Origin: Pseudarthrobacter sulfonivorans | Lineage (GTDB): Bacteria > Actinomycetota > Actinomycetes > Actinomycetales > Micrococcaceae | Length of the DNA stretch: 64,000 bases | Direction of reading: 5' to 3' | Assembly: GCF_001484605.1 (NCBI RefSeq) | Contig: NZ_CP013747.1 | Coordinates: 3,162,001-3,226,000, forward strand | Shown here: positions 108 to 1,787 of the stretch, in pieces | Layout of the letters: every line of letters begins with the position of its first letter | Numbering within the stretch: the first letter of the stretch is position 1 | Translations under genes and position numbers: made by a program | The notes under the pieces: model-generated | The model's database searches: none | Told to the model about the DNA's origin: nothing | The model's input: the letters and a program-made list of their open reading frames with translations, nothing else

Positions 108-1382
108 CTAGCTTGCTTTGACGTCATTCGCAGCTGCGGCGGCCCGCTGCTGGGCAAGCCTGATCTCAAGGACCGCGTCCAGTGCCTGCTGGACGCGGTC
201 CGAGGCTCCCGCGGCACTGAAGGCCTTCTGCGCTTCTTCGAGATAGACCAGGGCTTCGTCTGACTCGCCGGCGGCCTTCAGCGACTTTCCCAGCAGGAGT
301 GAAACTTCGCCTGCCGTGTGCTTGGCCAGAGCCCCTGATTCCGAGTGGATCTCGCGGAGCTTGTTGATGGCGGCCACGATGTCGCCGGTGAGATACAGCC
401 AGCGCGCGCGGATGAACGCAACTTCCAGCTGGTCGCTCTTGTTGCCGCCCACAATGGACAGCGCCAGTTCAGCGCGCTCGATGCTGGAAAGTGTTTCCGG
501 TTCTACAATTCCGGAGGACAGCCGGACGGCGGCCGAGGCCTTGTTGAAGCGGGCCCACAGATCAATGTCGTTGGCAGGGGACAGCATCCGGGCGGCGCGC
601 TCGTGGTACTTGATGCCCTCGGGGTAGTCGTGCCGCATAAAGGCGACGTTTCCGATCACCCAGGCAACCTCACCGGCAAGCTGGGACATGGAGTGCTCGT
701 CCATCTGGTCATTCATGGCCTGGCAGTACTTCCAGGCCTCGTCCAGGCGGCCGCTCTCCGCCAGCGCGCCGATCAGCGCGCGGTAGGCGCCGATGATCAG
801 CGTGGAACCGTTGGGCAGCTGGCCGCAGAGTTGGACGGCCGCCAATGCGTGTTCCACGGCAGTGCTCAGCTGTCCCTGTCCCTGGCAGATCGCCGCGAGC
901 ATCTGGCGGGCACGGACGGCGAGGCCGGCAGACTCCGTGGCCATGGGGTGCTCCAGGAGGTGCTGCATGATCTTTTGGCATTCCTGCCAGTTGCCCTGCT
1001 TGATCAGGCATTCGGCCTGCATGTAGGTCATGTTCCACCACGCGCTGGTGTTCTTGCCTTCCAAGGCTATCTGGGCCGCGTTGGCTGCGTGGGTGGCGGC
1101 CAGAGGATAGTCCCTGAGGTCCCAGGCCTGGCGCGCGTAGAGGCCGGCCAGGACGTACTCGGCGTCGCTGACAGTGATGGGCTGGCTCCAGGCTTCCAGC
1201 GCCTTGGGCGCCAGCTCCAGCCTGCGGGCGAGCTCCTCGATCACTTCGGCCGTCGGCTCACGGCGGCCGGTTTCGAGGAGGGAGATGTAACTGGGGGAAT
1301 ACAGGTCCTTGCCCAGTTCAGCCTGTGTCAGCCCACGTTCGAGACGCTCCGCACGGAGCTTCTCCCCGAATCCGTTGCCCAC
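108..1382 (-). CDS. XRE-family HTH regulator with C-terminal TPR-like repeats (RRNPP-like candidate peptide receptor)
   Basis: A cytoplasmic DNA-binding protein of 424 aa. Residues about 5-60 form an XRE helix-turn-helix (GEKLRAERLERGLTQAELG, then SYISLLETGRREPT). The remaining 350 or so residues are all-helical and look like TPR units, for example YPLAATHAANAAQIALEGKN and YPEGIKYHERAARML. I chose GTG 1382 because AGGAGG lies 7 nt upstream; the reading frame stays open 28 codons further but that part has no ribosome site. The architecture and size match the Firmicute Rgg/PlcR/NprR regulators, which bind short re-imported peptides. It is divergent from, and 132 bp away from, a secreted peptide gene with repeated motifs. 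No DUF397 partner, common beside Streptomyces XRE genes, is present. Peptide sensing is inferred, not shown. Confidence 0.8.
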   Translation of the reverse strand: MGNGFGEKLRAERLERGLTQAELGKDLYSPSYISLLETGRREPTAEVIEELARRLELAPKALEAWSQPITVSDAEYVLAGLYARQAWDLRDYPLAATHAANAAQIALEGKNTSAWWNMTYMQAECLIKQGNWQECQKIMQHLLEHPMATESAGLAVRARQMLAAICQGQGQLSTAVEHALAAVQLCGQLPNGSTLIIGAYRALIGALAESGRLDEAWKYCQAMNDQMDEHSMSQLAGEVAWVIGNVAFMRHDYPEGIKYHERAARMLSPANDIDLWARFNKASAAVRLSSGIVEPETLSSIERAELALSIVGGNKSDQLEVAFIRARWLYLTGDIVAAINKLREIHSESGALAKHTAGEVSLLLGKSLKAAGESDEALVYLEEAQKAFSAAGASDRVQQALDAVLEIRLAQQRAAAAANDVKAS

Positions 1383-1402
1383 GGGATTTCCTCCTAATTC
1401 TG

Positions 1403-1473
1403 GACAGTCTTTGTACTCAATGCTTGACAGTCCCTGTGGAAAACATTTTACAATGTATGTCAACAAGGACAGT
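1403..1473. promoter_or_regulatory. Three GACAGT direct repeats between regulator and peptide gene
   Basis: GACAGT occurs at 1403-1408, 1426-1431 and 1468-1473, with spacings of 23 and 42 bp, close to whole numbers of helical turns. The middle copy also forms ACAG-TCC-CTGT (1427-1437). The first and third copies are each followed by TTTGTA a few bases later. They flank the peptide promoter and are candidate binding sites for the adjacent XRE-TPR regulator. Confidence 0.45.
1424..1454 (+). promoter_or_regulatory. Probable sigma-70-type promoter of the peptide gene
   Basis: TTGACA at 1424-1429 matches the -35 consensus, and TACAAT at 1449-1454 is a good -10 box. The spacer is 19 bp, slightly long, which is typical of promoters needing an activator. 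A start site near 1461 would leave a leader of about 54 nt before the ATG at 1515. Confidence 0.55.
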
Positions 1474-1514
1474 GCTGACTTTGTAACGAATCCGACTCGT
1501 ATTGAGGAACTTAT

Positions 1515-1727
1515 ATGTTGAAGAAGATTGCGGCCGCTGGCGTACTCGCTGCTGCCCTGGCATTTTCTGCGGCGGCCCCGGCTGTCCTGTCGGCAGGTTC
1601 CATCGCCGACACCACCGGCGTATCCGTAGCCGTTGGCAACTGGCCCGATCCCATGTCCAAGCCCGTCAAGGACAAGACCGGCGGCACGTACACCACCAAC
1701 GTTGGCAACTGGCCCGACCCGATGTAA
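1515..1727 (+). CDS. Small secreted prepropeptide with two VGNWPDPM repeats (candidate pheromone precursor)
   Basis: A 70-aa protein starting at ATG 1515, with GAGGAA at 1504-1509 as ribosome site. Residues 1-4 (MLKK) are basic, residues 5-27 are hydrophobic and alanine-rich with AxA cleavage options (SAA, APA), so it should be exported by Sec. The mature part holds VGNWPDPM twice: once internally (bases 1632-1655) and once as the exact C-terminus (1701-1724). The two 24-nt copies differ at only two bases, both synonymous (GAT/GAC, CCC/CCG), so the peptide sequence is what is conserved. There is no cysteine and no modifying enzyme nearby. It is divergent from the XRE-TPR regulator, which suggests that a processed fragment such as the C-terminal octapeptide is the signal. 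I do not recognise a named family. Confidence 0.75.
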   Translation: MLKKIAAAGVLAAALAFSAAAPAVLSAGSIADTTGVSVAVGNWPDPMSKPVKDKTGGTYTTNVGNWPDPM

Positions 1728-1747: not shown

Positions 1748-1787
1748 GGCCCCGGGGCATGGTCATCATGCCTCGGGGCCATTTCTT
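1748..1787 (+). terminator. Rho-independent terminator of the peptide gene
   Basis: A 14-bp stem with a single mismatch pairs 1748-1761 with 1767-1780 around a 5-nt loop, and is followed by ATTTCTTTG. It starts 21 nt after the peptide stop codon, so the peptide gene is a single-gene transcript. Confidence 0.75.

Follow-up and report, generated by a model that had tools for sequence, protein, structure and literature searches.

A candidate peptide pheromone and its tetratricopeptide-repeat receptor in Pseudarthrobacter and related Micrococcaceae, with a layout like that of RRNPP systems

Two divergent genes in a stretch of 64,000 nucleotides from Pseudarthrobacter sulfonivorans (contig NZ_CP013747.1, positions 3,162,001 to 3,226,000; hereafter the window) very probably form an autoregulated receptor/pheromone circuit that works like the RRNPP(A) systems, as judged from sequence comparisons. 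One gene encodes a receptor-regulator of 424 amino acids (aa) with an XRE-type helix-turn-helix (HTH) and tetratricopeptide repeats (TPR), the other a 70-aa precursor containing the octapeptide VGNWPDPM twice. Four observations form the basis of this reading: the pairing of the two genes, the conservation of the peptide against codon change, the covariation of receptor and peptide, and an operator-like site that is tied to pairs in which the receptor has an HTH. The original prediction, made from the DNA letters of the window, had proposed a peptide pheromone with its receptor, and the first three of these observations lend support to it.

The description of the locus itself holds. A Pfam scan of the receptor returned HTH_31 (E=1.4e-11), HTH_3 (4.8e-11), TPR_12 (2.4e-9) and TPR_14 (4.3e-8), which together with the open reading frame (ORF) confirms the XRE-HTH/TPR protein that had been said to diverge from the peptide gene; the gap between the two genes amounts to 132 base pairs (bp). 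In the AlphaFold2 model the receptor forms a long TPR superhelix (mean predicted local distance difference test score 82.3) with a poorly modelled HTH, and the protein is without sign of membrane-protein character. The precursor ORF and both peptide copies, one of them being the exact C-terminus, were also found as claimed, and the claimed Sec export corresponds to a Sec-signal-like N-terminus, i.e. Lys-Lys followed by a hydrophobic stretch, as seen by eye and with a custom hydropathy filter. Downstream of the precursor gene, the stretch 1726-1795 folds with a z of -3.58, and none of 200 shuffles folds as well. From this strong terminator-like hairpin we deduce that the transcript probably contains a single gene; a role of the precursor ORF as leader peptide is disfavoured, because such a hairpin directly closes off this gene.

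Both genes are present, side by side by coordinates, in all 37 searched genomes of the genus, the window's own included, and the likeness to RRNPP suggested originally applies to layout and logic; in one of these genomes (G032) the precursor match crosses an in-frame TAG and the precursor has one copy. A relative of the receptor (E<=1e-30) was found in 217 of 395 drawn genomes of the family, representing 17 of 32 genera, and the best 80 of 292 named loci belong to Arthrobacter, Pseudarthrobacter, Paenarthrobacter and one unclassified Micrococcaceae bacterium. Among 120 listed proteins, the annotations given by the sources read 'helix-turn-helix domain-containing', 'XRE-family HTH', 'pentatricopeptide repeat', 'hypothetical' or similar. 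Neither receptor nor precursor was detected in 22 genomes from other families of the order. Wider searches gave receptor matches in 25 of 297 genomes of the order (E<=1e-15, some via the HTH alone), in 10 of 149 genomes of a second family of the order and in 5 of 396 genomes of the phylum (E<=1e-25), two of the latter belonging to the window's genus. The viral contigs searched encode no relative, and a search of the window's own genome revealed no second one. Overall, 244 loci were reduced to 190 distinct receptor/precursor combinations, of which 162 (163 after one correction) have a precursor. Hence, the search of Micrococcaceae for regulators adjoining small ORFs with NWPDPM-like repeats, which had been proposed as a check, was positive, and the opposite outcome, homologous regulators that never neighbour such peptides, was not observed. 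Furthermore, a motif-blind filter, which asked for a small ORF with a signal-like start, was applied to 77 loci (17 TPR-only, 50 distant or paralogous and 10 same-genus) and found a divergent precursor with a Trp-Pro (WP) core at 49 of them, L116 being added afterwards. As a control, 694 kilobases of those loci contained 48 signal-like ORFs with WP[DNH], and 47 of these are the paired precursors.

The DNA of the two copies in the window, GTTGGCAACTGGCCCGATCCCATG and GTTGGCAACTGGCCCGACCCGATG, differs at two bases, both synonymous. Two synonymous bases in one genome alone are weak evidence, and it is the comparative data that lift the pair far beyond chance. Among 156 distinct precursors 138 are multi-copy, and in 135 of these the same hexamer is found in all copies (exceptions are L073, L128 and L190); the hexamer is uniform inside precursors yet different from species to species, and the lack of motif conservation that would have spoken against a pheromone is thus not seen. 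Synonymous differences between copies of one precursor amount to 840 of 1661 sites (pS 0.506) and nonsynonymous ones to 38 of 6943 (pN 0.0055), and pN is 0.712 in the three residues preceding each copy, whereby these counts are descriptive, because related precursors are counted repeatedly and are not independent. The hexamer therefore stays constant despite codon change, which indicates selection on the peptide, as had been claimed from the two copies of the window. Recent gene conversion as source of the identical copies was considered and is disfavoured, since 51% of the synonymous sites differ.

The peptides of the family occur in one to eight copies each and include IGNWPDPM, VGNWPDP, VGIWPN, VGNWPDA, TGNWPN and PGNWPD; further WP variants are PGIWPD, VWIWPD, VGEWPH, VGDWPH, IGWWPN and PGWWPD. 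In another family of the order, the precursors next to distant relatives of the receptor contain two or three VGGSWPT repeats (L260, L279, L280) or end in a single SDTWPA (L261). Tandem precursors such as KIGDWPNKIGDWPNIGDWPN and VGGSWPTVGGSWPT leave zero or one spacer residue between the copies, which suggests a mature core of 6-7 residues, and residue 8 differs among the copies of L110/L111 (S, A, T, F) and may consequently lie outside the mature peptide there. Single-copy precursors make up 7 of the 126 rows used for covariation, and a few precursors of relatives exceed 100 aa. The precursor of L190 contains mixed copies (IGIWPDPM twice, IGNWPDPM and TGIWPDPM), possibly a snapshot of a pherotype change. 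L133 and L134 have ORFs of 32 aa that end with GFGGIGDWPHA(A/D), start approximately 130-145 bases upstream of the receptor and show no evident signal peptide; perhaps these are leaderless precursors.

In the 107 distinct intergenic regions that were aligned, the stretch best conserved by eye is CTTGACAG...CTGTGG...ATTTTACAATG.ATGTCAACA. The operator-like site of the window (1447..1464) overlaps the palindrome ACATT-TTAC-AATGT (1443-1456). The operator pattern TTTAC-N2-9-TGT[CT]AA, which was written after inspecting the sequences, occurs in 141 of 142 loci with an HTH receptor and a precursor (123 of the loci same-genus), in none of 21 TPR-only loci with a precursor, in 1 of 26 HTH loci without precursor and in 2 of 4880 shuffles; a re-check upstream of the precursor start returned the same numbers for HTH pairs (141/142) and TPR-only pairs (0/21). 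Its presence with HTH pairs and absence from TPR-only pairs is what would be expected if the receptor bound this operator through its HTH. The 18-base form of the operator, with up to 3 mismatches allowed, has a single match in the window's genome, namely the precursor promoter. A shorter pattern gave 16 matches in ten genomes, 9 at precursor promoters and 7 elsewhere, compared to 8 for a reversed control pattern, hence no further target is claimed; a longer pattern with 18-26 spacing had no match in 8 genomes, the true spacing being 17 bases. On these results the circuit looks autoregulatory, and further targets, if any, would use sites other than this pattern.

Covariation was studied in 126 full-length receptor/precursor pairs, with the branch permutations on a tree built without receptor columns 119-215. 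The octapeptide changes 16 times on the receptor tree of these pairs. All 67 pairs with Ile at peptide residue 1 have M127, L132, A164 and H167 in the receptor, and 44 of 46 pairs with Val1 have I127, W132, A/G164 and Q167, the remaining two being of the L110 type; W132 is absent from all 13 pairs with Thr or Ser at this residue. Each of the 6 changes in column 132 falls on a branch where peptide residue 1 changes, and on the tree without columns 119-215 this is true for 9 of 11 changes in column 132 and for 11 of 13 in column 167. When sets of changing branches were drawn at random, weighted by the number of columns changing on each branch, none of 500 permutations reached the observed best p for residue 1 (receptor 167 best), and 1 of 500 did so for residue 8 (receptor 200 best). 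Moreover, receptor I202 occurs only together with Ala8 (9/11) and Ser8 (2/2) and in none of 109 Met8 pairs. Residues 127 and 167 are equivalent in two successive repeats, each being residue 12 of helix A; residue 164 occupies TPR position 9, and 195/196/198 occupy positions 33/34/2. We take all these positions to be among the ligand-facing ones, and 132, 200 and 202 presumably fall outside of them. Such comparisons give good support for the view that peptide and receptor belong together. The tree of columns 119-215 needs 5 changes of peptide residue 1 and the trees of the other three segments need 23, 15 and 18, a comparison that is partly circular, because the covarying columns themselves lie in 119-215, and segment 1-118, being conserved, offers little resolution. 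These numbers fit columns 119-215 as a specificity segment that would have come along with the precursor through recombination or have arisen by convergence. It may also be mentioned that no other part of the receptor follows the type of peptide as well as these columns do, hinting at specificity-cassette exchange, with the same partial circularity.

A second relative that matches only the TPR part of the receptor exists in 17 of the 37 genomes of the genus and has approximately 340-360 aa where its start is clear. The TPR-only receptors of the genus and of other genera form a clade of 25 rows, each with a WP precursor. In 22 of these 25 loci (18 same-genus, 4 from other genera) the receptor adjoins, on the same strand, a GGDEF-EAL gene, for which Pfam gave EAL at 9e-72 and GGDEF at 6e-42 in L061, and in L065 the ORFs of receptor and enzyme share 4 bases. 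In L061 the other side is taken by a histidine-kinase gene. Such a neighbour is found in none of 139 other family loci, 80 of them close relatives of the window, and the TPR-only loci without it are L146-L148. By analogy to Rap, the HTH-less TPR protein probably binds and controls the GGDEF-EAL enzyme of cyclic di-GMP (c-di-GMP) metabolism, which is the most likely output in these relatives. As a side observation, the TPR-only receptors of L146 and L148, whose precursors are of the MGNWPH/IGDWPN type, face a convergent gene that encodes a CBM5/12 module.

Receptors without precursor were also found. On a broad tree they represent 36 of 96 rows, concentrated in few blocks (8 changes on the tree). 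One orphan clade of 13 (L120-L124, L126, L130-L132, L151-L154) retains nearly all conserved TPR residues, and another of 11 rows loses some of them, e.g. N245 in about one third. The idea that the orphans lost the groove was not borne out, given the retention in the 13-row clade, whose members are possibly listeners to signals made elsewhere, as far as the residues can tell. Two of them, L120 and L122, carry TTGTCAAC upstream.

The features are compiled in Table 1. Close to the pair, a tRNA-Pro(cgg) is located at 1877-1953 of the window, and the same tRNA is near the pair in 9 of 13 other scanned loci (L107, L110, L112, L113, L115, L117, L118, L161, L163), from which the pair seems to occupy a stable chromosomal place. 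The neighbours in the window include the end of a gene, whose last residues we take to resemble PurC, and two ABC half-transporter ORFs, the first of which was domain-scanned.

Table 1. Features of the receptor/precursor locus (positions in the window) and the related TPR-only loci
Feature	Position or locus	Strand	Remarks
Receptor-regulator gene, XRE-HTH/TPR	1382..108	minus	424 aa, GTG start, stop codon 108-110
Ribosome binding site AGGAGG of the receptor gene	1390..1395	minus	read from sequence
Receptor residue 127 codon (Ile; TPR2 helix A)	1002..1004	minus	co-varies with peptide residue 1
Receptor residue 132 codon (Trp; start of TPR2 helix B)	987..989	minus	co-varies with peptide residue 1
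Receptor residue 164 codon (Ala; TPR3 helix A)	891..893	minus	weaker covariation with peptide residue 1
Receptor residue 167 codon (Gln; TPR3 helix A)	882..884	minus	co-varies with peptide residue 1
TTGACA, -35-like box and left arm of inverted repeat TTGACA...TGTCAA	1424..1429	plus	conserved, 107 intergenic regions aligned
TTTACAATGTATGTCAAC, -10-like TACAAT with operator-like TGTCAAC just downstream	1447..1464	plus	intergenic alignment, pattern searches
Candidate pheromone precursor gene	1515..1727	plus	70 aa, ATG start, signal-peptide-like N-terminus
VGNWPDPM copy 1, internal	1632..1655	plus	sequence
VGNWPDPM copy 2, exact C-terminus	1701..1724	plus	sequence
Terminator-like hairpin 3' of the precursor gene	1748..1780	plus	folding of 1726-1795
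TPR-only loci beside a GGDEF-EAL gene	L061-L077, L149, L256, L257, L259, L274	same strand	gene-neighbour search

We propose that the circuit operates as follows. The small precursor would leave the cell via the Sec route and be processed extracellularly to a short peptide, whose core would be VGNWPD or perhaps VGNWPDPM. This peptide would re-enter the cytoplasm, probably via an oligopeptide permease, and bind in the groove of the receptor's TPR superhelix, where its residue 1 may lie near receptor residues 127, 132, 164 and 167 and, less surely, its residue 8 near 195-202. Binding would alter the action of the HTH on the TTGACA/TGTCAA operator, which lies in the promoter of the precursor itself, and thereby close an autoregulatory loop, in which both the DNA binding and the sign of the control are presumed.

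However, several findings weigh against this proposal. By our filter, 28 of the 190 combinations lack a precursor, including entire receptor clades, and in the second family of the order a WP precursor exists at 4 of 14 receptor loci only; L275 and L276, from larger genomes of the same class, have none at the receptor locus. Even close relatives of the window do not always keep both copies: L080, L167 and L168 have only the internal one and lack the C-terminal copy, and L078 has one VGNWPDPM. In the covariation data, only 5 Val/Ile contrasts are found on branches with good support; averaged over random pairings, 4.9 of these 5 agree, and the median p of the sign test is 0.0625, five being too few to pass 0.05. 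Along the receptor sequence, the top-8 covarying columns are not significantly clustered (194 and 87 of 500 permutations were as tight). No second operator was found in the window's genome or in the ten-genome search, so the precursor is the only predicted target. Finally, the top matches of a fold search with the receptor model are eukaryotic LGN TPR domains, hence the fold, for which many TPR proteins give matches, is not specific to RRNPPA, even if Rap and NprR are among the matches.

Among the alternatives, one concerns the origin of the pair, which could be a member of RRNPPA by descent, e.g. after an old transfer from Bacillota, and not an independent invention. A profile made from 18 family members (A2) matches PlcR over the HTH and early TPRs (residues 4-198, E=7.2e-9), and the order of HTH and TPR, the layout and the existence of an HTH-less, Rap-like branch are the same; with another profile (A1), however, the PlcR match is limited to the HTH, none of the Pfam/NCBIfam families given for the receptor takes its name from RRNPP, Rgg or PlcR, and XRE-TPR proteins are common, so that the architecture could have been recruited twice. 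A single-protein search of the PDB returned mostly designed pentatricopeptide-repeat and TPR chains. Altogether we regard descent as unlikely, albeit worth serious consideration. It is also rather unlikely that the peptide is sensed by the producing cell, as an export/processing timer or self-signal, and not as a cell-to-cell density signal. Self-sensing has been discussed for some Phr systems, and it would be in line with a receptor lacking membrane-protein signs and a loop that looks autoregulatory, and sequence alone does not tell it from cell-to-cell signalling; the peptide types, however, vary between species like pherotypes, and the precursors have a signal-like N-terminus, an argument that is partly circular because the filter required one. 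Quite improbable, in our view, is an extracellular job of the peptide, for example as an antimicrobial or at the surface, with the TPR regulator controlling its expression via another ligand. A small, probably secreted and repeated peptide from a likely single-gene transcript, with no other target found, would suit such a role, but residues of the receptor's TPR domain co-vary with residue 1 of the peptide, and the HTH-less receptors keep their own precursors though they are without DNA-binding domain and these precursors without operator-like site. A last alternative, in which peptide and receptor do not interact and linkage and common descent alone explain why they adjoin and co-vary, is hardly credible. 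In its favour, the genes lie 132 bp from each other and would be inherited together, association is inflated by related sequences, and the columns whose tree has the fewest residue 1 changes (119-215) include the covarying ones; against it, the branch permutations on the tree without these columns gave 0/500 and the segment nearest the precursor gene (columns 1-118, also the most conserved and least resolved) needs 23 such changes.

The preferred reading therefore remains an autoregulated pheromone circuit. Tentatively, and with somewhat more doubt than confidence, one may go further and suppose that Actinomycetota have their own WP-core cytoplasmic pheromone receptors, separate from RRNPPA and with a parallel history that comprises autoregulating HTH-TPR proteins, orphan listeners that retain the groove after losing the precursor, and an HTH-less form that responds to its pheromone by directly switching a GGDEF-EAL enzyme and would thus couple cell-cell signalling to c-di-GMP. 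If the circuit is real, RRNPPA-type communication, so far described mainly from Bacillus-type bacteria, would be opened in another phylum. Such a circuit, present in every searched genome of a common soil genus (Arthrobacter, Pseudarthrobacter, Paenarthrobacter) and offering natural pherotypes as well as residue-level predictions, would represent a clean system to study signal-receptor co-evolution, and its HTH-less branch a testable link from pheromone to c-di-GMP.

In the available portions of the literature, RRNPPA systems are placed in Bacillota (PMC10075063, PMC9765709, PMC11343458, PMC12700828), and actinobacterial signals are described as typically small molecules (PMC10075063) or as cyclic or modified peptides and gamma-butyrolactones (PMC4748050); these portions mention no unmodified peptide with a cytoplasmic TPR receptor in Actinobacteria. 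The system was not among the papers listed by searches of the open PubMed Central (PMC) library, preprints and most subscription journals being outside this scope, and NWPDP occurred in one listed paper, on inductive position sensors. The operational signature of RRNPP(A), as given in the accessible part of PMC10075063, consists of a Sec-secreted, peptidase-matured propeptide of 10-100 aa adjacent to a TPR receptor of 250-500 aa. Precursor (70 aa) and receptor (424 aa) of the window lie within these ranges, TPRs are present in the Pfam scan and in the model, and the genes adjoin each other; Sec secretion is represented by a predicted signal, in that the N-termini of the family precursors pass a hydropathy/charge filter only. 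The absence of an HTH, which defines Rap, does not apply to the window's receptor, which has one, and does apply to L061-L077 and other relatives.

Regarding individual systems, among natural PDB chains profile A2 matches PlcR best, over both HTH and TPR, and PlcR-PapR is presumably also an HTH and TPR regulator with an adjoining peptide gene. The PlcR chain, however, has 293 residues compared to 424 here, and the precursor described here is divergent and multi-copy. In Vibrio, the TPR protein of RcbA/RcbB is encoded beside a GGDEF protein, a diguanylate cyclase, and controls it, as we assume for the HTH-less branch; unlike in this branch, both Rcb proteins have TPRs, the phylum is different, and a pheromone is not mentioned in the available text (PMC12282931). 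Rap-Phr resembles our family in its TPR-only receptors with an own precursor, and tandem identical pheromones are described for phage Rap systems in the accessible part of PMC11343458, which gives 1 to 4 peptide copies for RRNPPA precursors. In contrast to Rap, whose targets are response regulators among others, the HTH-less relatives stand beside a GGDEF-EAL gene and are predicted to act on a c-di-GMP enzyme, and the window protein has an HTH. In comparison to RRNPP(A) in general, the present family is actinobacterial, has a WP core and up to 8 copies per precursor, and descent in sequence is not established. Nevertheless, in the RRNPP(A) systems of Bacillota (Rap-Phr, Rgg-SHP, NprR-NprX, PlcR-PapR, PrgX, AimR-AimP), as described in PMC10075063 and PMC11343458, a small propeptide, of Sec type there and predicted to be so here, likewise adjoins a TPR receptor of 250-500 aa, and both groups share an HTH on most receptors, a short C-terminal or repeated peptide and an HTH-less branch.

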